A stretch of 64,000 nt of DNA, taken from NCBI RefSeq assembly GCF_020400825.1, contig NZ_JAINVH010000041.1, forward strand, positions 1-64,000, given 5' to 3'. The stretch comes from Streptomyces sp. HPF1205 (GTDB taxonomy: Bacteria > Actinomycetota > Actinomycetes > Streptomycetales > Streptomycetaceae). Position 1 is the stretch's first letter. Each line of letters opens with the position of its first letter. Under the pieces are notes generated by a model. The model made no database searches. It was not told the origin of the DNA and saw nothing but the letters and a program-made list of their open reading frames with translations. Positions 4,490 to 59,091 of this stretch are shown one piece after another. The position numbers and the translations under genes are program-made.

Positions 4490-5386
4490 TCAGCGGGCCA
4501 CCGCCCCGGGGGTGACAGGGCCGCCGGCGGCTTCCGGGCGGGTCCCGGCGGCGCACGGGTCGGTGAACCGGTCGGCGGCCCGGTCCCCGGCCCGGTCGGC
4601 GGCCTGGTCGCGGGCGGCGAGGGCCGCGGTGAGCGCCTCGTCGAGGATCCGCCGCAGTCGCAGGCCGTCCGGGGCGACGGCGGTGACCAGCACGGCGGGC
4701 CCGGCGAGCGGGGTGAGGGCGGCCCGCGCGTCGCCGCTCCAGGTGCGCGGCGCGGCCGGTGCGTGCGCGAACGCCGGATCGGCCAGCAGCAGTTGCCCCA
4801 CCGCCCGGTGGCCGCCGAGCGTGCCTGCCACGCCCGGAACGCCGGGCCCGAAGGACAGTTCCTGGTCGAGCAGCGGCCGGCCGCCGTGATGGACGGTGAG
4901 CCGGGAGGTGAGCCTGCCGGGCTCCTCCGCGTGGCGGCCCAGGATCTGTTCCTCGCGCAGCAGCAGCCGTGCGGTGGGCGCGAGGTCCACCCGGGTGGTC
5001 GTCCGCAGGTCGCTGCCCTCGGCGCAGATGAGCGGTTCCGGCAGCCAGTGCAGCGTCCCTGCGTCGGCCACCGCCAGACGCACGTCGTACACGGCCCGCT
5101 CGCCGTGCGGTCCGGGCAGCGCCACGGTGGCCGCCGACGCGCCGACGACCAGCCGGGCCCCCGGGCCGACCTCGCCCTCGACGGTCAGCCGGTCCCCGCC
5201 CAGCGGCGCGCTCATCGCGCCGACCACGGTGATCCCGGCTGCGTCCGGCACGCCGTGCACGGGGGTGCGGCGCAGGGCCAGCGGACCGCTGCCCGCGAGC
5301 AGCGGCAGTACGGTGCCGCCGCCAGGGCCCGCCGCCGCCCGGAACCGGGCGGCGGCGCACACCCCGGCTGCCGGGCCGGCGCTCAC
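4490..5386 (-). CDS. ureD: Urease accessory protein UreD
   Basis: A 298-residue UreD/UreH-type chaperone that joins UreF and UreG to load nickel into apo-urease. Recognisable family segments are [32 protein letters not shown] and [17 protein letters not shown]. The GTG at 5386 overlaps the ureG stop by GTGA, indicating translational coupling, and is preferred over an upstream in-frame ATG inside ureG. The C-terminus is Asp/Ala-rich and low in complexity ([15 protein letters not shown]). It is the last gene of the ure operon. Confidence 0.9.
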
Positions 5387-6066
5387 GCCGTCACCGGCCG
5401 CCAAGCGGCGAGCCGCTGCCCGATCCACGCCGCCACCGGCTCGACGCCGCCCTCGCGGGCCACCGCGGTGAACACCACCGGCAGCGCGCCGCGCTGCGCC
5501 GCCGCGTCCCGCGCCATCCGCTCCAGGTCGGCCCCGACGTGGGGCGCCAGGTCGGTCTTGTTCACCACGAGCAGGTCGGACGTGGTGACGCCGGGACCGC
5601 CCTTGCGCGGGATGTCGTCGCCGCCGGCGACGTCGATGACAAAGATCTGCGCGTCCACCAGGCCACGGGAGAACGTCGCCGTGAGGTTGTCGCCGCCGGA
5701 CTCCACCAGCACCAGGTCCAGCGGGCCCGCCGCCGCCTCCAGCTCCTCGACGGCTTCGAGGTTCGCCGAGATGTCGTCACGGATCGCGGTGTGCGGGCAG
5801 GCGCCGGTCTCCACCGCCACGATCCGCTCCGCGGGCAGGACGGCCGCCCGCAGCAGGAAGTCGGCGTCCTCACGGGTGTAGATGTCGTTGGTCACGACGC
5901 CGATCGCCAGCTCGTCGCGCAGCCTGCGGCACAGCGCGGCGACCGTCGCCGTCTTCCCCGATCCCACCGGCCCGCCCAGCCCCACTCTCAGGGCCCGGGA
6001 ACCGGCGGAGGCGGCGGCGGAGAAGGTGTACCGCTCGGGATACGTCTCCGGGTGGTCCAGGTGCAT
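5383..6066 (-). CDS. ureG: Urease accessory GTPase UreG
   Basis: A 227-residue SIMIBI GTPase that couples GTP hydrolysis to Ni2+ delivery. It has the P-loop [10 protein letters not shown], the CPH metal-binding motif in [26 protein letters not shown], and the base-specificity motif VVNKTDLA. The N-terminus ([15 protein letters not shown]) has only two histidines, so it lacks the His-rich tail of some homologues. It is coupled to ureD by a GTGA overlap and lies 52 nt after ureF. Confidence 0.95.
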
Positions 6067-6118
6067 GGTCGGCTCCGATCGTGGACGTGTCCGGCCGGCC
6101 GTCGGCCGTCCGCTGTTT

Positions 6119-6991
6119 TCAGGACGCGAACAGGCGCACCGGCCAGGCGGCGTGCTGCTCGGCGGCGATGTCGAGCAGGGGCGAGGAGGCTGCCGGGAGG
6201 ACGCCCGGGCCCTCCGCCGCCGCGCGCCGGGCGGCGCGGGCCGCCGCGGCCGCGACCTCGTCGATCTCCGGGGCCAGGCGGGCCTGCACGGCGGCGGCCC
6301 GGAAGGGGTCCAGCCCGAGCAGGCGCACGGCCGCGGCCGCGGGGCCGCCGACCGACTCGTAGGCCGCCGCATAGGCGGCGTCCAACGGGCCGAGCCCGGC
6401 GGCAAGGGCGGCGACCCCGAGGACGACCGGCTGGTGTGCGCCCCGCGGGAAGGCCGCGGCCAGAGCGTCCAGCCCGGGGTGCGGCCACACCGCCCGCGCG
6501 GCCCTCAGCAGCTGCCGGCCGAGCCGGCGGGAGACCGTACGCAGCGCCGCCGACGGCGTACGGGCGTCGGCGGCCGCGTCCAGGGCGGCGGCCCAACTGG
6601 TGCCTGTGCCCGCATCCATGGCGGCGGCCCAACCGGTGTCTGCGGCCGCATCCATGGTGGCGGTCCGACCCGGGACTGTGCCCGCATCCATGGCGGCGGT
6701 TCGGCCCGGGTCTGCGGCCGCATCCATTGCGGCGGTTCGGCCCGGGTCTGCGGCCGTGTCCGTGCGGGCCGGCCCGTACGCGGCCGTCGCCGCCGCCGCG
6801 AGGGCCGCGGTGACCAGGCCGGTGGTGTGGAGCCGGCCGCGGCAGAAGGCGGCGAGCGTGGCCGCGTCCCGGATCCGGCCGTCGGTGACCGCCGCCTCGG
6901 CACCGCCGGAGTGCGCGTGCCCCCCGGCGGGGAAGCGACCGTCGGTCAGGAGCAGCAGCGCGGCCCGGCCGCCGCCGGCACCGCCGCTCAC
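6119..6991 (-). CDS. ureF: Urease accessory protein UreF with internal tandem repeat
   Basis: UreF activates UreG and bridges it to urease. The conserved core is present: [21 protein letters not shown] at the N-terminus and [17 protein letters not shown] to the C-terminus. GTG 6991 is chosen because CGAGGAGGAACG precedes it. The 290-residue length exceeds the usual 225-230 because residues about 80-139 are five copies of a 12-residue unit (consensus [12 protein letters not shown]). Those copies sit in the loop before the conserved [10 protein letters not shown] helix. Removing them would restore family length, so the frame and function are probably intact. Confidence 0.9.
6576..6755. repeat. 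Five 36-bp tandem repeats inside ureF
   Basis: Five in-frame 36-bp units begin at 6576, 6612, 6648, 6684 and 6720. They start with GCGTCCAGG or GCATCCATGG-like sequence. The last two units differ at only one position, while earlier ones have diverged more, which fits stepwise duplication. Confidence 0.9.
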
Positions 6992-7028
6992 CGTTCCTCC
7001 TCGTGGCCGGGCATCGGCTCCCACCGGC

Positions 7029-8750
7029 CTAGAAGAGGAAGTACCGCTGGGTCATCGGCAGTTCGGCCGCCGGGGCGGGTTCGACCACCTCGCCGTCGAT
7101 CCGCACCGTGAAGGTGTCCGGGTCCACGTCCACCCGCGGCATCGCGTCGTTCTCCCGCATGTCGTGCTTGCGCACCGCCCGGGTGGAGCGGATCGCGGCG
7201 AACCGCTTGCCGAGTCCGAGACGCTCGGGCAGACCGTCCTCGACCGCCGCCTGAGTGACGAAGTTGACGGAGTTCGCGGCGGGGGCGGCGCCGACACCGC
7301 CGAACATGGGGCGCGGCAATACGGGTTGCGGGGTCGGGATGGACGCGTTGGCGTCGCCCATCTGCGCGTACGCGATCTGCCCGCCCTTGATGACCAGTTC
7401 CGGCTTGACCCCGAAGAAGGCCGGGTCCCACAGCACGAGGTCGGCGAGCTTGCCCGCTTCGACCGAGCCGATCTCGGCGTCGAGGCCCTGGGCGATCGCG
7501 GGGTTGATGGTGTACTTGGCGACGTAGCGGCGGGCGCGGAGGTTGTCGGCACGGCCGTCCCCGGGAAGCGGGCCGCGCCTGCGCTTCATGACGTGCGCGG
7601 TCTGCCAGGTGCGCAGCGCGATCTCGCCGATCCTGCCCATGGCCTGGGAGTCGGAGCTGATGATGCTGATCGCCCCGAGGTCGTGCAGGACGTCCTCGGC
7701 GGCGATGGTCGAGGGCCGGATGCGGGACTCGGCGAAGGCGAGGTCCTCGGGCACCGCCGGGTTGAGGTGGTGGCAGACCATCAGCATGTCGAGGTGCTCC
7801 TCGACGGTGTTGACGGTGTGCGGCCGGGTGGGGTTGGTGGAGGACGGCAGGACGTGCGGCTGGGAGACGACGGTGATGATGTCCGGCGCGTGCCCGCCGC
7901 CCGCGCCCTCGGTGTGGTACGCGTGGATCCCGCGACCGGCGATCGCGGCCAGGGTGTCCTCGACGAATCCGGCCTCGTTGAGCGTGTCGGTGTGGATGGC
8001 GAGCTGGGCGCCGCTGTCCTCGCAGACCCGCAGGCACGCGTCGATGGCGGCGGGGGTGGCCCCCCAGTCCTCGTGGATCTTGAAGCCGACCGCTCCGGCC
8101 CGCAACTGGGCGTGCATCGCGGCCTGGTTGACGGTGTTGCCCTTGCCGAGCAGCCCCACGTTGACCGGGTACGCCTCCAAGGCGGCGAACATTCGCGCCA
8201 GGTGCCAGGCACCGGGGGTGATCGTGGTGGCCTTGGTGCCCTCGGCGGGGCCGGTGCCGCCGCCGATGACGGTGGTGACGCCGCTGGACAGCGCCTGGTG
8301 CATCAGCGTCGGCGAGATGAAGTGCACGTGCGCGTCCACGGTGCCCGCGGTGAGGATCCTGCCGTTGCCCGCGACGACCTCGGTGTCGGGGCCGATGACC
8401 AGGCCGGGATGGACCCCGTCCATGGTGTCGGGGTTGCCGGCCTTGCCCAGCGCGGTGATCCTGCCGTCGCGGATGCCGACGTCGGCCTTGACCACTCCCC
8501 AGTGGTCGAGGACCACCGCCCCCGTGATCACGGTGTCGGGGGCGCCCTCGGCCCGGGTGGTCCTGGCCTGCCCCATGGACTCGCGGATCACCTTGCCGCC
8601 GCCGAACACGGCCTCGTCCCCGGCCAGGCCCGGCCCGCCGGCGAGGTCGCGTTCGACCTCCACGAGCAGGTCGGTGTCGGCGAGCCGGATCCGGTCGCCG
8701 GTGGTGGGCCCGAACAGGTCGCCGTATACGGACCGGGGAAGCTCAGGCAT
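7029..8750 (-). CDS. ureC: Urease alpha subunit (catalytic)
   Basis: A 573-residue nickel urease catalytic chain (urea to ammonia and carbamate). Visible active-site elements are HVH at about 141-143 and the carbamylated lysine in GFKIHEDWG (K224). [11 protein letters not shown] and [15 protein letters not shown] supply further Ni-ligand histidines. The mobile flap [21 protein letters not shown] holds Cys326/His327. ATG 8750 overlaps ureB by 8 bp. A 37-nt gap separates it from ureF. Confidence 0.97.
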
Positions 8751-9072
8751 CGGGCGCCCCGCTCGTGTCGAGGGCGCCCGCCGTCTCGCCGCGCAGTCCG
8801 GCCACCACGCGCAGGCCGCCGATCGGGACCAGTTCGACCTCGGCGGGGATGCCGGGCTCGAAGCGGACGGCGGTGCCGGCGGCGATGTTGAGCCGCTTGC
8901 CGCGGGCGGCGGCGCGGTCGAAGCGCAGCCCCGGGTTGGCCTCCGCGAAGTGGTAGTGCGAGCCGACCTGCACGGGGCGGTCGGCGGCGTTGAGCACGGT
9001 CAGGCGGGTGACAGGACGGCCGGCGTTGAAGGGCACCGGCTCGTCGGCGGGCAGGATCTCTCCCGGGATCAC
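8743..9072 (-). CDS. ureB: Urease beta subunit
   Basis: A 109-residue structural subunit with the typical [15 protein letters not shown] start, [18 protein letters not shown] and [15 protein letters not shown]. It starts at GTG 9072, 12 nt after ureA, and overlaps ureC by 8 bp. Beta is a separate gene and not fused to gamma, as is normal for actinomycete urease. Confidence 0.96.
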
Positions 9073-9084
9073 GGTCGCCGCCTC

Positions 9085-9393
9085 TCAGACGATCGGCTGG
9101 TGGACGGTGACGAGCTTGGTGCCGTCGGGGAACGTCGCCTCGACCTGCACGTCGCGCACCATCTCGGGGACGCCGTCCATGACGTCGCCGCGGGACAGGA
9201 CGGTGCGGCCGGAGACCATGAGCTCGGCGACGGTCCTGCCGTCCCGGGCGCCCTCCAGGACGTGCGCGGTGATCAGCGCGACCGCCTCGGGGTGGTTGAG
9301 CCGCAGCCCGCGCTCGCGCCGCCGCCGTGCCACGTCGGCGGCGACATGGACGAGCAGCCGCTCCTGCTCGTGGGGAGTCAATCGCACGGCCAC
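9085..9393 (-). CDS. ureA: Urease gamma subunit
   Basis: A 102-residue gamma subunit and first gene of the ure operon. It has [43 protein letters not shown] and the end motif [21 protein letters not shown] GlnR-like box lies 47-83 bp upstream. Confidence 0.96.
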
Positions 9394-13214: not shown

Positions 13215-14531
13215 TCACCCTTGCGCCTCGGACGGCCTCGCGGCACTCGCGGCCGGCACGTCCTCGACCACGGGCGGCACCTCGGGAAGCGGGTCGCCGT
13301 CGTCCGCGACGCCGCCGTCGAGCCGGTCCCACAGGCGCAGCAGAGGCGTGGCCATCACGGTGGTGACCACCGCCACCATCACCAGCACGGTGAACATCGA
13401 CGGGGACACGATCCCCTCGGACAGGCCGACGTTGATCGCGACGAGCTGCATGAGCCCGCGGGCGTTCATCAGCGTCCCGATCCGCAGCGCCACCGCGTTC
13501 GACTGGCCGCCCAGCCGGGCGGCCGCCCAGCACCCCCCGAACTTCCCGACCACGGCGGCGAGGGTGCATCCCGCCGCGAACAGCAGCAGGGCCGGGTCGC
13601 CGAGCAGACCGGTGTCGGTGTTCAGGCCCGAGTAGGTGAAGAACAAGGGCAGCAGCAGCACCCGGCTCAAGGGCGCGGTCGCCTCCACCGCCTGGTCGAT
13701 GCGCGGCGACCGGGGGAAGGCCGCGCCCAGGCTGAACGCGCCGAACACCGCGTACAGACCGACCCGGTCGGTGTACCAGGCGGCCAGGCACAGCACCAGG
13801 AGCAGGGCCAGCATGAGCTGCTCGGGGGCGAGGCGGTCGGCGGCCCGCAGCGCCGGCCCGCGCCAGCGCACCAGCGCGGTCAGTGCCACGACAAGCCCGG
13901 CGGCGCCCGCGACGGCCAGGAGCACCGTCCCGGCGCTGCCGCGCGCGACACTCACCACGCCGGCCAGCATGATCCAGGCGGCCACGTCGTCGAGCGCGCC
14001 GGCCCCCAGCGAGACCGTGCCGAAGGTGGTGCCGGTCAGCCGGTTCTCGGTGATGATCCGGGCGAGCATGGGGAACGCGGTGATGGCCAGGGTGACACCG
14101 ACGAACATCACGGTCACGTGGCGGGACACCCCGGGGGGCGAGGTGTCCACCGAGCCGTGCGCGGCCCAGGTCAGGGCCGCGCCCAGGGCGAGCGGGGCGG
14201 CGATGCCCACGGCGGAGATCGACGCGGCCGAACGGGCCATCGCACCTATCCGGTCGAGCCGGAACTCGTACCCGGACTGGAACATGAACAGCGTCAGGCC
14301 GAGCTGCCCCGCGACGTACAGCACCGGGCGCAGGGCGGTGGGGAAGAGGTGGTCCTCGACGGACGGCAGCAGCAGCCCGAGCACCGACGGGCCGAGCAGC
14401 ACGCCGGCGATCATCTCGGCGACGACAGGGGGCTGGCCGAGCGGCCGCAGGAGCGCGGTGACGGCCCGGCAGACGAGCAGGATGACGGTGGCGGCCAGTA
14501 GGAAGGCTGTACCCAGTTCGGTCGTGGACAT
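13215..14531 (-). CDS. CPA2-type cation/proton antiporter
   Basis: 438 residues and about 12 hydrophobic segments of the Na+/H+ exchanger fold. Recognisable parts are PVVAEMIAGVLLGPS, LFMFQSGYEF, AITAFPMLARII and the ion-binding Asp pair in GALDDVAAW. MNARGLMQLVAINVG also matches antibiotic-cluster and KefB-like antiporters. The C-terminus is a short acidic tail. ATG 14531 is chosen, with AAGGG upstream; another ATG lies 18 nt before it. It follows the P450 gene by 134 nt on the same strand and may be the last gene of that operon. Confidence 0.87.
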   Translation of the reverse strand: MSTTELGTAFLLAATVILLVCRAVTALLRPLGQPPVVAEMIAGVLLGPSVLGLLLPSVEDHLFPTALRPVLYVAGQLGLTLFMFQSGYEFRLDRIGAMARSAASISAVGIAAPLALGAALTWAAHGSVDTSPPGVSRHVTVMFVGVTLAITAFPMLARIITENRLTGTTFGTVSLGAGALDDVAAWIMLAGVVSVARGSAGTVLLAVAGAAGLVVALTALVRWRGPALRAADRLAPEQLMLALLLVLCLAAWYTDRVGLYAVFGAFSLGAAFPRSPRIDQAVEATAPLSRVLLLPLFFTYSGLNTDTGLLGDPALLLFAAGCTLAAVVGKFGGCWAAARLGGQSNAVALRIGTLMNARGLMQLVAINVGLSEGIVSPSMFTVLVMVAVVTTVMATPLLRLWDRLDGGVADDGDPLPEVPPVVEDVPAASAARPSEAQG

Positions 14532-14665
14532 GGGAGGCAGGCCCTTCAACGGGGTGGCCCGCGGCGAAGCGGTGTACGGCCCGCGGCGGGCCCGGTGGGG
14601 GGATGGCGGTGCGCGGTACGTGCGGTGCGGGGTGATGAGCCGTCAACGGCGGGGGTGAGGGGCCG

Positions 14666-16120
14666 TCAGCGGCCGCGGTAGGGGCAGCCGCCCGGCGCCG
14701 GGCCCCGGCCCCGCGGGTCGGGCCGCGCTTCGGGTGCGAGCGCGTCCAGCGGGCGGCCCTGGGTGTCGTGTGCGGCGAACCAGGTCCGGGCCGGCCGCAG
14801 CCGCCGCGCGTGGAGCACCATCACGGTGCCCAGCACGAGCTGGAGCAGGCTGCGGCCGACGTCCTCCCAGCGGTCGCGTATCCGCATGCCCGCGAGGACC
14901 GCGGTCGTACGGCGGCGCGGCAGGGGCCGGTCCCTTGCGACCAGCAGGCACGGAGCGCGGTGCGGGATGGGGCGGGTGTGGGAGACGGACGAGTGGAGGG
15001 TGAAGCGGCGCAGCACCTCGCGGGTGACGGCCCGCATCACCAGGGGGGCCAGCCGCCAGGCCGGGCACGGCCGGTTGGCGGCGACACCGAACGGGATGTG
15101 GTGGGCGTCCTTGGCGGACAGCAGCTCCCAGCGGTCCGGGTCGAAGACCTCCGGGTGGTCGTAGCCGGTGGCGTGATAGGCGGGGTAGTCGAAGCACAGC
15201 ACGGTGCCCGCCGGGTAGCCGACGCCGTCGCCGAGGTCGATGTCGGCGCTGGTGATCCGGTGCGCGATGCCGAACAGCGGGTACATGCGCAGCGTCTCGT
15301 TCATGACGTTGCCCAGGTAGCGGTCGTCGTCGGGGCGCGCGGCCACGCGCCGCTGCACGTCCTGGTGCTGGGCGAGCGCCAGCAGCAGGTGGGCCATGGC
15401 CTCGGACATCTGCACCACGGCCGTGTTGAAGAAGGTGCCCTGGAGGTAGTGGGCGCGCTCCAGCGGGGTGGCCAGTTCGGCGGGAAGGGCGTGCGGGACC
15501 TCGCCCGCGGCCAGTTTCCCCAGCAGGAACGCGGTGAGCCGCTCACGGCGGCGCATGTGCCGCAGCCGCGTGTTCTTCAGGGAGTCGACCACGTCCTCGG
15601 CGTTGGCGACGATCAGCGCGCGGGCGTGCGGCGGGCAGGGCCCGCGGAACACCAGCTCGTAGAAGAACTCCGCCCACACCGGCATCATCAGGTCGCGCAG
15701 CCGCAGCAGCGCGGCGCCGCCGGTCACCCGCTCGTCGAGCACGCGCGCGGCGCAGCGGGCGGCCGCCGCCGACAGGTCCGCGCTGCGTCCGGCCAGGACG
15801 GCCGCGGTGGTCCGGGCCACCGCCTCGTAGCGGGGGCCGGGCTCCAGGTGCTCCTGGTGCACCTCCGGTCCGGGGGAGAGCCAGTACCAGAACAGGTCCG
15901 ACAGTCCGGCGCCCTTGCTGCGGCCGTCGGCGGCCGGGTGCGCGTACAACTCGGCGAACCGTTCCGGCCCGACCGGCCCGCCCGGCACGGTGACGCCCTC
16001 GGGGCCGTTGACCTTCTCGAACACCTTTCCGCGCAGCGTGATGAGCGCCTTGGGCAGCCAGTACGGGCTGGACAGCGCGCCCGCGGCGGCGACGGCCCCT
16101 GCCAGGCCGCGTGGACTCAC
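14666..16120 (-). CDS. Atypical cytochrome P450
   Basis: 484 residues. It has the K-helix ExxR in NETLR (E275/R278), a PERF-like FDPDRW, and the heme loop PFGVAANRPCPAWRLA with Cys352 as thiolate ligand. The I-helix (about 226-245, GTFFNTAVVQMSE) lacks the usual acid-alcohol pair for O2 activation. An N-terminal WLPKALITLRGKVFEKVNG region and an Arg-rich tail of about 85 residues beyond the heme domain are unusual. GTG 16120 overlaps the FMN oxidase stop by GTGA. The chemistry is unknown; peroxide use or a non-oxygenase reaction is possible. Confidence 0.85.
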   Translation of the reverse strand: MSPRGLAGAVAAAGALSSPYWLPKALITLRGKVFEKVNGPEGVTVPGGPVGPERFAELYAHPAADGRSKGAGLSDLFWYWLSPGPEVHQEHLEPGPRYEAVARTTAAVLAGRSADLSAAAARCAARVLDERVTGGAALLRLRDLMMPVWAEFFYELVFRGPCPPHARALIVANAEDVVDSLKNTRLRHMRRRERLTAFLLGKLAAGEVPHALPAELATPLERAHYLQGTFFNTAVVQMSEAMAHLLLALAQHQDVQRRVAARPDDDRYLGNVMNETLRMYPLFGIAHRITSADIDLGDGVGYPAGTVLCFDYPAYHATGYDHPEVFDPDRWELLSAKDAHHIPFGVAANRPCPAWRLAPLVMRAVTREVLRRFTLHSSVSHTRPIPHRAPCLLVARDRPLPRRRTTAVLAGMRIRDRWEDVGRSLLQLVLGTVMVLHARRLRPARTWFAAHDTQGRPLDALAPEARPDPRGRGPAPGGCPYRGR

Positions 16121-17214
16121 CGGCACGGCACCCCCTTCGGGCCCCGGACGACCACCTGGTCGCGGCCGACGTCGGAGCAGTCGCGGGCGCCGCACAGCGT
16201 CAGGACGTGCGCGGTCTGGCCGGTGAGCTCGGCCAGCACCCTCGCCACCCCGGCCTCGCCCTCGGCGGCCAGCCCCCACAGCACCGGCCGGCCGACGCCC
16301 ACCGCGCGCGCGCCGAGCGCGAGGGCGGTCACCACGTCGGCACCGGAGCGCACCCCGCCGTCGAGCAGCACCGGGATCCGGCCGCCCACCGCCTCGGCGA
16401 CCGCCGGCAGCGCCTCCACGGCGGCCGGTGCCGCGTCGAGCTGCCGGCCGCCGTGATTGGACACGATCACACCGGCCACCCCCTCGTCGGCGGCCCGGCG
16501 GGCGTCCGCGGGATGCAGGACGCCCTTGAGCCAGACCGGCAGGCCGGTGGCCGCCCGCAGCCGGCGCAGATCGGCCCAGGACAGGGCCGGGCTCATCGCG
16601 ATCGGGAGGCGCTCGCCGGGGGCGGCGCCGGCCAGGCCGCGCATGTTCTCGGTGGCGTAGCCGGGCGGCAGGTCGTGGAAGCCGTTGCGGTCGTCGCGGG
16701 GGCGCCGGCCGAACGCGGGGGAGTCGGCGGTGACCACCAGGGCGGAGCAGCCGGCCCGCTCCGCCCTGGCCGCCAGCTCCCGCGTGACGCCGTGGCTCGG
16801 CTGCAGGTACATCTGGAACCACACCGCGGCGTCCGCGTCCACCTCACGGGCGGCCGCCGTGACGTCGGCCACGGCGGTGGTGGCCGCCATCGAGGTGATC
16901 AGTACGGTGCCGGCCGCCGCCGCGGCGCGGGCGGTGGCGCGCTCCCCGTCCGGGTGGGCGAGCCGGTGGAAGGCGGTGGGGGCGACGAGCACGGGCGGCG
17001 TCGAGGGGGCGCCGGGCAGCCGCACCGACAGGTCCGGCGGCCCGGCGCCGCGCAGCACCCGGGGGAGCAGCGCGAGCCGGGCGAAGGCGCGGACGTTCTC
17101 GGCCAGCGCCGTCTCCTCGCCGGCGCCGCCCTCGAAGTAGTCCCAGTGCACCGGGTCGAGCCGTGTCCTGGCCTTCTCACGCAGGTCGCCGAGGAGACCG
17201 GCGGACGCGGTCAC
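16117..17214 (-). CDS. FMN-dependent alpha-hydroxy acid oxidase/dehydrogenase
   Basis: A 365-residue TIM-barrel flavoprotein of the lactate/glycolate/mandelate oxidase family, which oxidises 2-hydroxy acids to 2-oxo acids. Family residues include Tyr26 in YFEGGAG, the QMYLQ Tyr136, Lys230 (VWLKGV), catalytic His254 and Arg257 in SNHGGRQLD, and DGGVRSGADVV. GTG 17214 overlaps the upstream FAD monooxygenase stop by GTGA, and its own stop overlaps the P450 start. The three genes are thus tightly coupled. The in-cluster substrate is probably a pathway intermediate (inference). Confidence 0.92.
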   Translation of the reverse strand: MTASAGLLGDLREKARTRLDPVHWDYFEGGAGEETALAENVRAFARLALLPRVLRGAGPPDLSVRLPGAPSTPPVLVAPTAFHRLAHPDGERATARAAAAAGTVLITSMAATTAVADVTAAAREVDADAAVWFQMYLQPSHGVTRELAARAERAGCSALVVTADSPAFGRRPRDDRNGFHDLPPGYATENMRGLAGAAPGERLPIAMSPALSWADLRRLRAATGLPVWLKGVLHPADARRAADEGVAGVIVSNHGGRQLDAAPAAVEALPAVAEAVGGRIPVLLDGGVRSGADVVTALALGARAVGVGRPVLWGLAAEGEAGVARVLAELTGQTAHVLTLCGARDCSDVGRDQVVVRGPKGVPCR

Positions 17215-18839
17215 GACGGGCTCGCGACGGCTGGCCGGCCGAGTCCCTGCCCGGACAGGAAGCGGACGAGCGGGGCACGGTGGACCTCCTCGCTGTCCCA
17301 CTCGTTCTCCAGGTTCTCCGTGATGTGGTGCTCCGCGGCGCACTTGCCGTCCTGCCACAGCCGGATCACCGGGTGCAGGTAGCGGCTGTCCAGCCCGCCG
17401 GTGTCCGTCTGCGCGCGGCGGTCGACGGAGATGTCGAACGGATTGACCTTGTCGTGGTCCGCGCCGTACTCCAGCGTCACCGTCAGATACCGGTCCACCG
17501 GCCCGAAGACCCCGTCCGCGACCGACCGGTGGAGGTGGTCGAGGGGGAGTTCCTCCAGGTACGCGGCGCCGGCGCCGGCCGGCCCGTCGGCCGCCGCGGG
17601 GGCGGGCAGGAGCACCGCGTCGCTCATGAAGCCGAACATCTGCCACAGCGCGGAGGTGCGGTTGACCCGCTCCAGCACCGCGTCGGCCACGGCCTCGGCG
17701 GTGACCGGCAGTTCCCGGCGCGGCCAGGCCACCTCCTCGTAGCGCTGCTCCATGATGCGGTGCAGCGCCCGCACCGCGTAGCGGAATCCGTGGATGAACC
17801 CGCTGGTGGACTTCTTGAAGTCGCGGGCCTGGGTGATCGTGCCGGCGAAGAACAGGTCGGGCACGTTGACCGACTCCCAGGAGTCCGTCTGGGCCGGGAA
17901 CCTGTCCTTGATCGTGAGCTCCGGGCGGCATTCCTCGTCGAACAGCGAGGCGTCGAAGCGGAAGCCGGTGGCCAGAATCACTCGGTCGTAGGGTATTTCC
18001 TTCACCACCTCGGCGACCCGTGCGAATTTCACCGCGACGAGGTACCTGCCGTCCGGGTCCGGCCTTCTGATCGACAGCACCTCGCCGTCCAGCAGGGCGT
18101 TCTGGGATTTGAGCTGGTAGGTATCCAGGAAGTTGTTGTTGACCGCCCGCAGGTGCCCGACGAAATGCGTCTGCCAGGCCAGCCGGAGCGACCCGGGGCC
18201 GACCATGTGAATGACCGCGGCGGTCTCGATGAGATTGTCCGCGGTCTCGAAGGCGGAATTGCCGCGGCCGATGACCAGGACCCGCAGGTCGGTGAAGTCC
18301 GCGGGATCGACCGACACCTCGGTGTACGACTCGGCCAGTTCCACCCCCTCGATCGGCGGGATGTACGGGCGGGTCACGCCGCTCGCCATGATCACGCGCC
18401 GTGCCCGCAGCACGGATCCGTCCTCGGCCTCGGCGACGAATTCCCCGCCCTCGGCAGGACGGCTGATGCGTGTGATGCGGGTGCGGTAGTGGATGCGCAA
18501 CCGGTGAGTGGCGGCGAAGTCCGCGAGGTAGCCGACGAAGTCGTCGGCAGGGGGGAAGTAGCGGGGGGTGACCGCGGTGAACAGCGGCCGGTTCTCCTCG
18601 GAAAGCAGCGAGTTCCAGTCGGTGCGCAGATTCAGTTCCGGGTCGTCCCAGCCGGTGTGCACCTTGTTGTTCGATATCATGGTGCGGTGCCGCGGATATC
18701 TCGTGAAGAAGGTGCCTGGGGCTTCTCCTGCCTCTACCACCAGATAGTTTCGGCCAGCCCGTTCCAGGAAGTATCCGGCCTGGAGTCCCGCGGGTCCAGC
18801 GCCTACTACTAAGTAATCCAAGAGTGCGTCGCCTGCCAT
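17211..18839 (-). CDS. FAD/NAD(P)-dependent monooxygenase (FOXRED2-like), TTA codon
   Basis: 542 residues with an FAD Rossmann motif GAGPAGLQAG (13-22), a second dinucleotide motif GRGNSAFETA (191-200) and ATGFRFD. This two-Rossmann layout is typical of group B flavin monooxygenases and FOXRED2-like enzymes. The first codons are AT-rich, and codon 10 is TTA (18810-18812), the leucine codon read only by the bldA tRNA in Streptomyces. It is the lead gene of the minus-strand operon and is divergent from the ligase gene. Substrate unknown; N- or C-hydroxylation are both possible. Confidence 0.88.
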   Translation of the reverse strand: MAGDALLDYLVVGAGPAGLQAGYFLERAGRNYLVVEAGEAPGTFFTRYPRHRTMISNNKVHTGWDDPELNLRTDWNSLLSEENRPLFTAVTPRYFPPADDFVGYLADFAATHRLRIHYRTRITRISRPAEGGEFVAEAEDGSVLRARRVIMASGVTRPYIPPIEGVELAESYTEVSVDPADFTDLRVLVIGRGNSAFETADNLIETAAVIHMVGPGSLRLAWQTHFVGHLRAVNNNFLDTYQLKSQNALLDGEVLSIRRPDPDGRYLVAVKFARVAEVVKEIPYDRVILATGFRFDASLFDEECRPELTIKDRFPAQTDSWESVNVPDLFFAGTITQARDFKKSTSGFIHGFRYAVRALHRIMEQRYEEVAWPRRELPVTAEAVADAVLERVNRTSALWQMFGFMSDAVLLPAPAAADGPAGAGAAYLEELPLDHLHRSVADGVFGPVDRYLTVTLEYGADHDKVNPFDISVDRRAQTDTGGLDSRYLHPVIRLWQDGKCAAEHHITENLENEWDSEEVHRAPLVRFLSGQGLGRPAVASPS

Positions 18840-19061
18840 GTTCCCTCCCAGTTTCCGATAGGGGTGCGCGACACCATAGTTTCGAGTTCAAGGAGTCCTC
18901 CAGATGTCGCCGATGTGATCCATATCACACCGCTGTGGTGATTGGATATCGCGCTGTGCGGATAACTCCGCCCTGACGCGGATCGAAATACCGGCCGTGC
19001 CGCCACGACCGCCGGGACGGCCTTGGCCGTCCACGGCCGCCCGCCCGGATCGGAGGGCCCG
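18840..19061. promoter_or_regulatory. Divergent promoter region between FAD monooxygenase and ligase
   Basis: A 222-bp AT-enriched intergenic region with start codons at both ends. It contains the CRP-like palindrome at 18914-18929. Both flanking genes have an early TTA codon. Confidence 0.7.
18914..18929. promoter_or_regulatory. CRP-like operator palindrome
   Basis: TGTGATCCATATCACA has exact TGTGA-N6-TCACA half-sites, the consensus arrangement of CRP/FNR-family regulators. Streptomyces Crp recognises closely related sites. It is positioned to act on both divergent promoters. Confidence 0.6.
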
Positions 19062-20654
19062 ATGAACCATCCCGTGCGACCGGTCTTTCCCCAGCCCCTG
19101 CTCGACGCGTTCGCCCGCGATCCGGACCGCCCGGCCTTCGAGTTCGGGTTACGCCCGGTCCCGCGCGGCGAGGTCCTGGAACTGGTCCGCCGCTGCGCCG
19201 CGGCGCTCGACGCGGCAGGCGCCGGCGCCGGCCGCGACCGGACCGGCGTGGCCGTCACCACCGCCGTCACCCCCACCGGTTTCGCCGCCCAGATCGCCGC
19301 GCACCTCCTCGGCTGCCGCGTCACGGGACTCAGGCCCGGCCTGACTCCCCGTCAACTGGACGACGTGCTCGCCCAGGGCGTCGACCTCGTGCTCGCCGAC
19401 GACACCACCCGCACCGAAGCACTGGCCGGTGCCGCGAAGGCGGCCGGCGCGCGGATCCTCGACGTCGAACGTGACCTGGCGGGCGGACCGCCCCCGGCCG
19501 GCGGCACGCCCGCCGCACCCCTGCCGGCCCCGCGCGGCCGACCCGGCGACATCGCCCTGATCACCCTGACCAGCGGCAGCACCGGCCGCCCCAAGGGCTG
19601 CGCCCAGACGTACCGCTCGCTGAGCGAGCACTGGTCCTGGCAGGAGCGCGAGCACTGGGGCGATGCCGCCCGCGAACTGGCCGCCGCCTACCGCAGGTTC
19701 CTGGTCTTCGGCACCCTGACCAGCGCGGTGATGCTGGAGCACCTGGCGCTGTGCCTGATCGGCGGCGGAACCGCCGTCATCCCCGACTCACCGGTGTCCT
19801 TCCCGTACACCTGGCGGCGGCACCGCGTCACCGCCTGCCTGTGCACCGTCCCGCGCCTCTACCAGGTGCTCGACACCCTGCGCGCCGAGGACGTCGACAC
19901 CAGCGACATGCGGGCGCTGCTGGTGGCCGGCTCGCCCCTGCCGCCGCACCGCCTCGCCGAGGCCGCCGAGCGCCTCGGCCCCGTCGTCCACCAGGGCTAC
20001 GGCCAGACCGAGACCGGCCTGCTCACCCTGCTCACCCCGCTGGACCAGCAGCGGTACGGCGAGCGCGTGCGCGACACCGTCGGCCGTCCGATGCCCGGTG
20101 TCGACATCGAGGTCCGCGACGGCGCGGGCCGCATGGTGCCCGCCGGCGCCCCCGGCGAGATATGGGTCCGCACGGCCGGCGCCATGTCCGGCTACTGGCA
20201 GGACCCGGAGCAGACCGCCGAGGTCCTCCAGGACGGGTGGATCAGGACCCGCGACCTGGGGACCCTCGACGCGGACGGATTCCTGCGGCTGGTGGGCCGC
20301 ACCCGCGACGTGATCTTCGTCAACGCCGTCCTGCACTACGCCGGTGCCATCGAGACCGCGCTGGCCGCCCACCCCGCCGTCGACCAGGCGTACGTCGTCG
20401 GCGCCCCGGACGAGCGCACCGGCGAGGCCGCGCACGCCTTCGTCGTGCCCGCCCGGCCCGGCCGCCTTCCCGACCCGGACGAGCTGCGTGCCCTCGTCCG
20501 CGCCGAACTCGGCGACGGGGCCGTGCCCGCCACCGTCACGGTCGTGGACGGCGTCCCGGTCGCTCCCAGCGGCAAACCCGACAAGAAGGCCCTCCTGGCA
20601 AGGATCCGCGGGGGCCACGGGGACGCGGGCGCCGGCCCGGAGCCGGTCGCCTGA
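19062..20654 (+). CDS. AMP-dependent acyl/aryl synthetase (ligase), TTA codon
   Basis: A 530-residue ANL-superfamily adenylating enzyme. It has the P-loop LTSGSTGRPKG (169-179), GYGQTETG, the hinge region LGTLDADGFLRLVGR and the A10 lysine in PSGKPDKK. The acceptor could be CoA or a carrier protein, but no carrier gene is nearby. ATG 19062 follows a GGAGG. Codon 30 is TTA (19149-19151), so translation is probably bldA-dependent. It is divergent from the FAD monooxygenase/FMN oxidase/P450 operon, suggesting substrate activation for one small pathway. Confidence 0.9.
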   Translation: MNHPVRPVFPQPLLDAFARDPDRPAFEFGLRPVPRGEVLELVRRCAAALDAAGAGAGRDRTGVAVTTAVTPTGFAAQIAAHLLGCRVTGLRPGLTPRQLDDVLAQGVDLVLADDTTRTEALAGAAKAAGARILDVERDLAGGPPPAGGTPAAPLPAPRGRPGDIALITLTSGSTGRPKGCAQTYRSLSEHWSWQEREHWGDAARELAAAYRRFLVFGTLTSAVMLEHLALCLIGGGTAVIPDSPVSFPYTWRRHRVTACLCTVPRLYQVLDTLRAEDVDTSDMRALLVAGSPLPPHRLAEAAERLGPVVHQGYGQTETGLLTLLTPLDQQRYGERVRDTVGRPMPGVDIEVRDGAGRMVPAGAPGEIWVRTAGAMSGYWQDPEQTAEVLQDGWIRTRDLGTLDADGFLRLVGRTRDVIFVNAVLHYAGAIETALAAHPAVDQAYVVGAPDERTGEAAHAFVVPARPGRLPDPDELRALVRAELGDGAVPATVTVVDGVPVAPSGKPDKKALLARIRGGHGDAGAGPEPVA

Positions 20655-21133
20655 CCGCGGGCGTGCGGCCCGCCGGCGCGCGGGCGAGCCGTCCGCCCGC
20701 CGGCGTGCGGGCCGTACGCCGTCCGTGAGGTGCCGGGCCCTCGTGTCGGCCCGCACGGGTGACCTCCGCCCAGCGCCGCTGTCCCGTCCGGCCGGACGCG
20801 GACGCGAACCCGGACGCGCGCCCGGACCCGGACGCGGACCCGGACGCGGACCCGGACGCGGACGCGGACCCGGACGCGGACGCGGACCCGGACGCGCGCC
20901 CGGACGACGTCGCCGGACCTACGTGGTGGCCGCGCACGCGGCTACGTGGTTGCACGGATGCCCGCGCCCCGCCGTGCTGGCTACGGTGATGCCGCTGGAG
21001 CGCTCGGGAAACCGCCGGCCTTCCGGGGGCGGCCGCGGCGCAGCGGTCCCGCCGGCCCGCCGCGTGCCCCGAGCCCCGCGTACCACGACACGTTTCCGGC
21101 CCGGCGTTCTCGCCCCGCGCCCTGGAGGGACCC
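20655..21133. other. Intergenic region with hexamer repeats
   Basis: No gene is supported in these 479 bp. The middle is a GGACSC hexamer repeat (20793-20909). A GAGCGCTC palindrome core at 20998-21005 lies about 130 bp before the glycoside hydrolase. Confidence 0.6.
20793..20909. repeat. GGACSC hexanucleotide tandem repeat
   Basis: About 19 imperfect 6-bp units (GGACGC or GGACCC, with a few CGCGCC interruptions). It is translatable as Asp-Pro/Asp-Ala repeats in one frame but shows no start or ribosome site. Confidence 0.8.
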
Positions 21134-22972: not shown

Positions 22973-23065
22973 CCCGGGTCCGGGACCGGGTCCGGGACCG
23001 TGTTCCGGGACCGGGTCCGGGACCGTGTTCCGGGACCGGGTCCGGGACCGTGTTCCAGGTCCGGG
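22973..23065. repeat. 25-bp tandem repeats after the glycoside hydrolase
   Basis: About 3.5 copies of a GTGTTCCGGGACCGGGTCCG-type 25-bp unit. Each copy contains the mini-hairpin GGTCC/GGACC, so the array may also act as a terminator between the convergent genes. Confidence 0.75.
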
Positions 23066-23122
23066 TTCCGGGTCCCGGGCCGGTCGCGGCCCGGCCCGGC
23101 GTTCGAGCCGGCTCGCCCCAGG

Positions 23123-57525: not shown

Positions 57526-57654
57526 CCGCTTGCCCGCGCGCCCGGGCTCCTTCCGCCGGGACGCCCGCCCGCGCGATAATCGGCAGCCACCCCGGCGACG
57601 CGCGCCGGGACCGGGGGCGGCGCCGGCCGCGGACGAGGCATGGAGGCGCCAGCG

Positions 57655-59091
57655 ATGAACGCCAGCGACGCGGGCCGCGCGTACCCGATCCGCTTACCCG
57701 GCGAAGGCGAGGGCCACCGGCTGCCCGGCCCCGCCGAGCGCGTGGCCGTCGCCTTCGAGGGCCCGGACGCGGGTGTCGAGCAGTTGACCTGGGGCCAGTG
57801 GTCCATCTGGGAGGCGATGTCGCGCCACGGCTCCTGGATGCCGCTGGGCGGTTCGAAGCCCCTGGAGGCCGGCGTGTCCCTCCGCGACGTCGCGGAGGAG
57901 CTGCGGTACCTGATGACCCGGTACCCGTCGATGCGCACCCGGCTGCGGTTCGACTCCGGGCCCGAGCCCGCGCAGGAGCTCTTCGGGTCGGGCGAGATCC
58001 ACCTGGAGGTCCACGACGCCGACGACGGTACGAAGCCCGGCGCATTGGCTGCCGCCGTCGAGGCGCACTACAAGCACGCGCCCCTCGACCTCGCCGGCGA
58101 CTGGCCGGTCCGCATGGCCGTGATCCGGCGGCACGGCGAGCTCACGCACATGGTCGCCGTCATGTGCCACCTGGTGACCGACGCCGCCGGCGCCCGGGTG
58201 ATGCTGCGCGAGGTGGCGGCCAGGACCACCGCGCCGCCCGTGGGCACGCAGCAGCTGGAGCAGGCCCGCTGGCAGCGCTCCGCCGGCCGGCGCCACGACG
58301 ACCGGGCGCTGCGTTACCACGAGAAGCTGCTGACCTCGATCGCGCCGCGCCGTCCCTCCGGCTCGGCGGACCCGCGCACTCCGCGGTACTGGAGCGCGGA
58401 ACTGCGCTCCCGGGCGCTGCGGCCCGCGGCCCAGGCCGTCGCGCGGCGCACCGGAGCCACGGCGTCCACCGTCCTGCTGACCCTGTACGCGGTCGCGCTC
58501 GCGCGTGTCACGGGCGTCCACCCGGTGGTGGTGCGGCCCCTGGTGGGCAACCGCTTCCGCCCGGGACTCGCGGACGTGGTGTGCATGCTCTCGCAACTGG
58601 GCCTGTGCGTACTCGACGTGGCCGACGCCACGGTCGACGAGGCGGTGGCCCGCACGCAGCGCGCCGCGCTGAGCGCGTACAAGTACGGGTACTACGACCC
58701 GCGGCGGCTCGCGGCACTGGTCGACCGGATCGCACGGGAACGCGGCCCCGGCTTCGACATCAGTTGCGTGTTCAATGACCGCCGCGACGAATCCCCCGGC
58801 GACCCGGCGGGCGACCCGGCGGGCGACCCGCTCACCGGGGACCGGTTGCGCGCCGCGCGCGACGGCAGCGAGTTCCGCTGGGCCGGCACGACCGACAGGC
58901 CGTCCGAGCGCCTGTTCCTGACCGTCGAGGAGGAACCGGAGGGCATCGTCCTCGGCTTCGCCGCGGACACGCACCACTTCCCCCCGGGCCGGTTCGAGAC
59001 GCTGCTGCGGGACATCGAGGACCTCGCCGTCGAGGCCGCCCTCGACCCCGCGGCGCCCACGGGTGTGACGCCGTCCGGCCGCGGGGCCTGA
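57655..59091 (+). CDS. Stand-alone condensation-domain protein, TTA codon
   Basis: 478 residues with the fold pattern of NRPS condensation domains: LTWGQWSIWEAM near the N-terminus and the active-site region MCHLVTDAAG (a variant of HHxxxDG keeping one His and the Asp). VVVRPLVGNRFRPGLADVVCMLSQLG and SCVFNDRR follow. No carrier or adenylation gene is adjacent, so it may use free acyl-CoA or amino donors, or work in trans. ATG 57655 follows GGAGG. Codon 14 is TTA (57694-57696), suggesting bldA-dependent expression. A GDPAGDPAGDP repeat lies near residue 383. Confidence 0.8.
   Translation: MNASDAGRAYPIRLPGEGEGHRLPGPAERVAVAFEGPDAGVEQLTWGQWSIWEAMSRHGSWMPLGGSKPLEAGVSLRDVAEELRYLMTRYPSMRTRLRFDSGPEPAQELFGSGEIHLEVHDADDGTKPGALAAAVEAHYKHAPLDLAGDWPVRMAVIRRHGELTHMVAVMCHLVTDAAGARVMLREVAARTTAPPVGTQQLEQARWQRSAGRRHDDRALRYHEKLLTSIAPRRPSGSADPRTPRYWSAELRSRALRPAAQAVARRTGATASTVLLTLYAVALARVTGVHPVVVRPLVGNRFRPGLADVVCMLSQLGLCVLDVADATVDEAVARTQRAALSAYKYGYYDPRRLAALVDRIARERGPGFDISCVFNDRRDESPGDPAGDPAGDPLTGDRLRAARDGSEFRWAGTTDRPSERLFLTVEEEPEGIVLGFAADTHHFPPGRFETLLRDIEDLAVEAALDPAAPTGVTPSGRGA

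Follow-up and report, generated by a model that had tools for sequence, protein, structure and literature searches.

Within a 64,000-nucleotide stretch of the Streptomyces sp. HPF1205 genome (contig NZ_JAINVH010000041.1, positions 1 to 64,000; hereafter the window), five genes at 13215-20654 encode an atypical cytochrome P450, an FMN-dependent 2-hydroxy-acid oxidase (HAO), a FAD/NAD(P) oxidoreductase (FMO), a cation:proton antiporter and an adenylating ligase. These genes, together with a palindrome in their divergent promoter region, are as follows:

13215..14531, minus strand: CPA2-type cation:proton antiporter (Na_H_Exchanger), putative export or self-protection; Pfam PF00999, 2.6e-49
14666..16120, minus strand: atypical cytochrome P450; Pfam p450, 1.1e-16, residues 227-389 only
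16117..17214, minus strand: FMN-dependent 2-hydroxy-acid oxidase (HAO); Pfam FMN_dh, 4.5e-115
17211..18839, minus strand: FAD/NAD(P) oxidoreductase (FMO) with its own C-terminal domain and TTA at codon 10; Pfam Pyr_redox_3, 1.4e-47
18914..18929, no strand assigned: palindrome TGTGATCCATATCACA, a CRP-type site in the divergent promoter region, conserved across ligase-FMO gaps
19062..20654, plus strand: adenylating ligase (ANL family), amide-bond-synthetase-like, ATG start, TTA at codon 30; AMP-binding, 6.1e-54, plus AMP-binding_C

The open reading frames (ORFs) and the sequence give a minus-strand transcription order of FMO, HAO, P450 and antiporter, with the ligase divergent on the plus strand. 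Four-base GTGA overlaps occur at both the FMO/HAO and HAO/P450 junctions, and 134 bases separate the P450 stop from the antiporter start when ATG is chosen for the latter. The original prediction for this locus had described just such a layout, with three GTGA-joined redox genes, a divergent ligase and a same-strand antiporter after the P450, and the ORFs, sequence and Pfam matches bear it out. Genes for polyketide synthases (PKS), non-ribosomal peptide synthetases (NRPS) or carrier proteins were not found in the conserved block. None of the NCBIfam matches listed for the five proteins (25 of 104 for the ligase) reaches its cut-off; that of the antiporter is to a CPA2 subfamily, and the protein shows a weak resemblance to KefC.

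Conservation and borders of the gene set

The five genes almost certainly form a real, conserved and co-inherited cluster. From a scan of named genomes covering 187 relatives, the best 80 loci were kept, a choice that favours near relatives; 12 of these loci are interrupted by contig ends, and each includes at most about 10 kb of flank. Next to the FMO we found HAO in 79 of the 80 loci, the P450 in 79, a ligase in 74 and an antiporter (either of two types) in 63, the ligase and antiporter counts each pooling two protein types. The sole locus lacking the P450 (L028) is ended by a contig end. As this set is anchored on the FMO, we also searched a class sample of 296 genomes, drawn evenly and including the window's own genome, independently with the FMO alone and with the P450 alone, scoring the best 4-5 candidates per genome. 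The P450 was present in 12 of the 296 genomes, with the FMO no more than 1.2 kb away in all 12. The FMO was present in 16, and the four genomes without the P450 carry distant homologues (43-45% identity) in other surroundings. Homologues are thus co-located elsewhere by both routes, which was the point on which the original prediction had staked itself.

Co-inheritance is also apparent in the divergence of the proteins. Among the 42 loci with all five, pairwise distances correlate for all ten protein pairs (r 0.38-0.87), and for each pair none of 999 permutations was as high, with the organisms' shared descent contributing to these values. A chance neighbourhood is ruled out by recurrence of the gene set in other genomes without shared flanks. 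Only 4 of the window's 36 other called ORFs match any of the 80 loci (in 1, 1, 1 and 2 loci, within the flank covered), and because these flanking ORFs hardly recur we place the cluster edges at 13215-20654.

Record titles and family labels place the cluster family across several actinobacterial families. Within the genus (Actinacidiphila, to judge from the closest named relatives) the FMO is present in 21 of 35 genomes, near full-length in 20 and as a broken remnant in one, and a search of plasmid records returned one close relative, on an 11.85 Mb Nonomuraea record that carries no annotation at the matching place. One locus (L021, genome G022) holds a decayed copy of the cluster, with fragments of the FMO, P450 and ligase and a stop codon.

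Active-site features of the encoded enzymes

Ordinary P450s carry an acid-alcohol pair in the I-helix motif (A/G)Gx(D/E)T and a haem loop of the form FxxGxRxCxG. In the P450 family described here, the I helix reads FNTAVVQ or FNTGVVQ in 35 of 37 sequences (FGTAVVQ and FTTAVVQ in the other two), and the haem loop, FGVAANRPCPA, is one residue longer, with Ala where the last Gly would be; the usual proton-relay pair and the usual loop are therefore absent. The protein nonetheless retains an intact ExxR in 36 of the 37 sequences, an invariant haem-ligand Cys352 and an ANRPCPA segment invariant in all 37. Its model (predicted local distance difference test, pLDDT, 83.7) matches the P450 fold with a best Z of 27.8 and a root-mean-square deviation (rmsd) of 2.7 over 338 residues, and it carries a C-terminal helical extension. 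CYP152 peroxygenases have an Arg-Pro pair in the I helix; no Arg-Pro occurs in the conserved I-helix motif here, so the sequence lacks the mark of that family, and in the fold search CYP152 matches tie with other P450s, with no single P450 family standing out.

The catalytic residues of the HAO (D164, K230, H254 and R257) are invariant in 37 aligned sequences. The FMO has two GxGxxG motifs conserved in 41 sequences, and over residues 4-368 its closest folds are YpdA/Bdr and bacterial flavin monooxygenases (Z 23.5-25.5, rmsd 3.0-3.2, about 314 residues), with a model of moderate confidence (pLDDT 77.8) and a fold search that singles out no flavoenzyme family. Group-B flavin monooxygenases are recognized by the fingerprint FxGxxxHxxx(F/Y), which was not seen before the second GxGxxG of the FMO, and we do not assign the protein to that class. 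Its C-terminal signature may resemble that of eukaryotic FOXRED2 (ERFAD).

The ligase contains both the large and the small ANL domain, with intact A3 and A10 motifs. Its best solved relatives are 6sq8/6h1b (6sq8, 9.9e-70) and 8pyy/8pyx/8ppp (8pyy, 2.7e-61), whose molecule names read fatty acid coenzyme A (CoA) ligase and fatty-acyl-CoA synthase and which we take to be the amide bond synthetases McbA and ShABS. In 37 sequences, Lys505 of A10 and Ala422 of the A8 region are invariant; the latter sits in a V-(N/D)-A segment in all 37 aligned ligases, which is V-E-A in the putative McbA and ShABS entries, and two further ANL proteins encoded at these loci have Gly there. Ala for Gly at A8 favours direct amidation over CoA transfer in the ANL family, without being proof of it. 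By these features, the ligase resembles amide bond synthetases more than it does CoA ligases. The adenylating enzyme of the original prediction is upheld by Pfam.

Two architectures and an ammonia-lyase module

Two architectures were seen among the 80 loci. In type A, that of the window, the ligase is divergent from an FMO that heads a HAO-P450(-antiporter) run, and the ligase-FMO gap is present in 34 of the 80. Type B is marked by an aromatic ammonia-lyase-like gene, present in 35 of the 80 loci, together with a second FMO in 33 of those 35, a more divergent ligase and a two-component system, all around the same FMO-HAO-P450 core. The two-component system is present in the type-B loci save L060, which is ended by a contig end, and it also accompanies the core at loci with no nearby lyase (for example, L099, L102 and L121-L125).

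The best solved match of the lyase is 2o6y (4.1e-72), presumably the Rhodobacter tyrosine ammonia-lyase, and the HL and NQDVV motifs in the alignment are consistent with an enzyme of that kind. Of the 296 class-sample genomes, 7 carry the lyase, and 6 of these 7 are among the 12 that bear the P450 (hypergeometric P 7e-9, with genome relatedness ignored). The lyase-like module belongs to the wider cluster family, which corrects the gene set originally predicted, and the core and lyase parts behave as separable modules that tend to occur together. A close copy of the type-B lyase elsewhere in the window's genome was considered and rejected, as the two PF00221 proteins there are only 33-36% identical to it.

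The type-B gaps between lyase and FMO (for example, in L056) have a conserved element of their own near TAGGC-N4-(G/A)ATCTCA, which in 27 of the 33 precedes the FMO match by 51-52 bases. This element is perhaps the site of the response regulator.

Control elements

The palindrome between ligase and FMO gains its weight from conservation across loci. Taken by itself, the window's copy lacks significance, being one match to TGTGA-N6-TCACA with at most one mismatch where 0.46 are expected by chance. We scored 35 ligase-FMO gaps, from 34 loci and the window, by their best match to TGTGAT-N4-ATCACA, which has at least 9 of 12 positions in 30 gaps and at least 11 of 12 in 17; in gaps simulated by first-order Markov resampling, these scores were reached in 5% and in none of 7,000, respectively. 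The five gaps without the box score 7 of 12, and L033 has a tie at 9 of 12 between two places, of which the script took the out-of-line one. All 16 sites with at least 11 matches in the 1.65 Mb of the 80 loci fall in the ligase-FMO gap. In 26 of the 30 gaps the box precedes the FMO match by 85-111 bases, and a block near CTTTAA-N3-TCAAGTA-N2-GT comes after the box at mostly constant spacing. Exact TGTGAYNNNNRTCACA sites occur four times in the window's 8.4 Mb genome, the box being one of them, and the reversed control pattern does not occur there. A scan of the ligase-FMO gap for sigma-70 promoters and terminators found nothing.

A site of the form TGTGA-N6-TCACA is thus present upstream, and its conservation across gaps marks it as CRP-type; the same sequence is given as the consensus of mycobacterial Crp proteins (PMC7739888). 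A CRP-family regulator probably acts at the box to switch divergent transcription of the ligase and FMO. The box is missing from the 33 type-B lyase-FMO gaps (best score 8) and from seven core loci of the class sample that have a two-component system (L121-L127; no site of at least 10). We propose that in the second architecture the two-component system takes the place of the box and of the TTA controls described below.

TTA codons lie where the original prediction had put them, at codon 10 of the FMO and codon 30 of the ligase (codon 43 if TTG at 19023 is used as the start). Three of the 38 genes that a crude gene caller placed in the window contain TTA, namely the FMO, the ligase and a gene at 57640; the caller missed the P450 and HAO, which are free of TTA. 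The third of these genes (57640-59091, TTA at codon 19) has a start that by eye resembles an NRPS condensation domain.

Among the 80 loci, 13 have an FMO homologue with an early TTA, at five aligned positions (4, 10, 19, 24 and 35). Over the whole aligned FMO gene 12 TTA codons were seen and none beyond position 35, the 13th lying before the alignment start, and in-frame TTA upstream of the aligned start was left out of the counts. Since these counts include related strains, the five different positions are the safer figure. All 13 loci are Streptomycetaceae by record title, and none has the lyase. For comparison, 48 of 852 neighbouring genes carry TTA, with 12 of their 53 TTA codons within the first 40 codons where 7 are expected. 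The control by bldA that had been suggested for both divergent genes fares differently for each. For the FMO, repeated gain of an early TTA plausibly fits bldA-type control in Streptomycetaceae, and in some members of the family the tRNA that reads TTA is probably needed as well for its translation. Against this, 67 of the 80 loci have no TTA in the FMO, and the ligase codon-30 TTA is not conserved, none of the other 74 ligase-bearing loci sharing it.

A candidate pathway and its alternatives

From the observed gene set, motifs and control sites we infer all of the reactions that follow. Our preferred reading, held tentatively, is that this is an uncharacterized specialized-metabolite cluster that makes a small acyl amide. 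The P450 would hydroxylate a carboxylic acid, in the simplest case at the position adjoining the carboxyl, and the HAO would convert the 2-hydroxy acid to a 2-oxo acid with release of H2O2. The ligase would adenylate the acid and join it directly to an amine, with neither CoA nor a carrier protein, to give the amide. The NAD(P)H-dependent flavoenzyme may oxygenate or reduce an intermediate at an unplaced step, and the antiporter may export the product or protect the producer. In type B, the module of tyrosine-ammonia-lyase, second FMO and ligase probably supplies a different, p-coumaroyl-type acyl group. A more specific version, in which the P450 uses H2O2 for hydroxylation next to the carboxyl and the HAO makes the keto acid and regenerates H2O2 before the carrier-free ligase amidates, strikes us as quite unlikely; it draws on the lack of a redox-partner gene beside the P450 and of the usual proton-relay residues within it.

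Several observations weigh against an acyl-amide pathway. HAO is missing in one of the 80 loci (L099) and a nearby ligase in six, and gene order differs in two class-sample loci (L113 and L116). The argument from the A8 Gly stands on general knowledge of the ANL family plus two local comparisons, and the 25 of 104 NCBIfam matches listed for the ligase are mostly CoA ligases, all below cut-off. The CRP-type box equally fits a catabolic operon. In two genomes (G048 and G175) the lyase, second FMO and a ligase lie elsewhere while a separate ligase stays with the core (L114, L115, L121 and L122), so the modules may serve separate products.

The most serious alternative, which we nevertheless consider doubtful, is a catabolic operon in which a carboxylic or aromatic acid is hydroxylated, oxidized and lastly converted to a CoA thioester that enters central metabolism, with carbon control of the CRP type. 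The box would suit such an operon, as would the closeness of the HAO to lactate, glycolate and mandelate oxidases and the acyl-CoA ligases that are the highest NCBIfam matches listed for the ligase. However, no β-oxidation, hydratase or dehydrogenase gene is among the genes tracked as conserved, the best solved relatives of the ligase are taken to be amide bond synthetases and share its A8 Ala for Gly, TTA codons recur near the FMO start, and the spread is patchy, the near full-length FMO being found in 20 of 35 genomes of the genus and the P450 in 12 of 296 of the class. The unlinked modules of G048 and G175, each with a ligase of its own, argue instead for two products, one from the core (ligase, FMO, HAO, P450 and antiporter) and another from the lyase, second FMO and second ligase, with type B merely placing them side by side. 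This is unlikely given that most of the 35 lyase loci show one ligase for both parts and that the lyase is nearly confined to core-bearing genomes (six of seven). Very improbable, to our minds, is a redox-stress or detoxification module of flavoenzyme, P450, oxidase and KefC-like antiporter rather than a product pathway. The FMO fold, nearest to bacillithiol disulfide reductase and flavin monooxygenases, and the faintly KefC-like antiporter point that way, but it is hard to see what the conserved ligase and the linked ammonia-lyase would do in such a module, and no Cys is among the invariant residues of the FMO.

Neighbouring features and other candidates

Five distant FMO homologues (42-45% identity) were dropped as informative for the pathway because their surroundings differ. 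Four loci of one family (L108-L111, from four genomes) have FMO homologues of 43-45% identity near 8.8-10.7 kb of each locus, and by eye their neighbours resemble carboxylate-amine-ligase, AhpD-like and SnoaL-like genes, which gives this flavoenzyme family a second recurring gene context. In two genomes the cluster is adjoined by similar genes that by eye look like sulfotransferases (L113, 6510-7172, and L099, 7620-8315). An anti-phage role was also considered and found no support, PADLOC yielding one weak match, to the FMO.

Elsewhere in the window, positions 4490-9393 hold what by eye is a urease operon with accessory genes, none of whose ORFs matches the related loci. G+C-rich tandem repeats with 30-base and 25-base periods lie at 20792-20906, downstream of the ligase, and at 22979-23072, after the next gene.

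Comparison with known systems

The original prediction had offered the pathway as a candidate undescribed one. Among the papers listed by searches of openly licensed literature, with subscription journals mostly outside that coverage, we found no description of the gene set or of a product, and no pathway with the same gene set. As a putative specialized-metabolite cluster it has an unusual enzyme set, and its control elements are conserved enough for direct testing. If the ligase forms amides, it adds a divergent and well-sampled branch to a biocatalytically interesting enzyme class; if the P450 is peroxide-driven, its pairing with the oxidase would be a naturally occurring instance of a cascade that biocatalysis is looking for; and if the reading in which H2O2 is regenerated is true, the cluster would represent a small pathway type that needs no PKS, NRPS, CoA or carrier proteins.

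Each enzyme has recognizable relatives. The FMO has its fold in common with a Stenotrophomonas-type flavin monooxygenase (4a9w) and with YpdA/Bdr, to which it adds its own C-terminal stretch of about 150 residues. The HAO shares the FMN_dh family and catalytic residues with 4-hydroxymandelate, glycolate and lactate oxidases; relative to glycolate oxidase (GOX), whose numbering we take for the comparison, homologues have Met or another residue at the place of Trp108 and Tyr or Phe at that of Tyr24. Likeness to the tyrosine ammonia-lyase 2o6y is confined to the type-B lyase, of which the window's genome has no close copy. With McbA (Marinactinospora, marinacarboline) and ShABS (Streptoalloteichus hindustanus), the ligase has in common the ANL family, the A8-region Ala and the conserved A10 Lys, whereas the neighbouring genes differ from those of this cluster and amidation here is predicted only. 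Only a handful of sequences are reported to be more than 50% identical to McbA (PMC10804368).

At the level of whole clusters, the nearest published system that we met is the 5-dimethylallylindole-3-acetonitrile cluster (SCO7467/7468). That cluster contains a flavin monooxygenase and uses an indole prenyltransferase, none of which is among the genes tracked here. It is presented as a small tryptophan-derived actinomycete cluster that is said to be widely distributed, and the likeness to the cluster described here is that of a small, widespread actinomycete cluster (PMC3617294).

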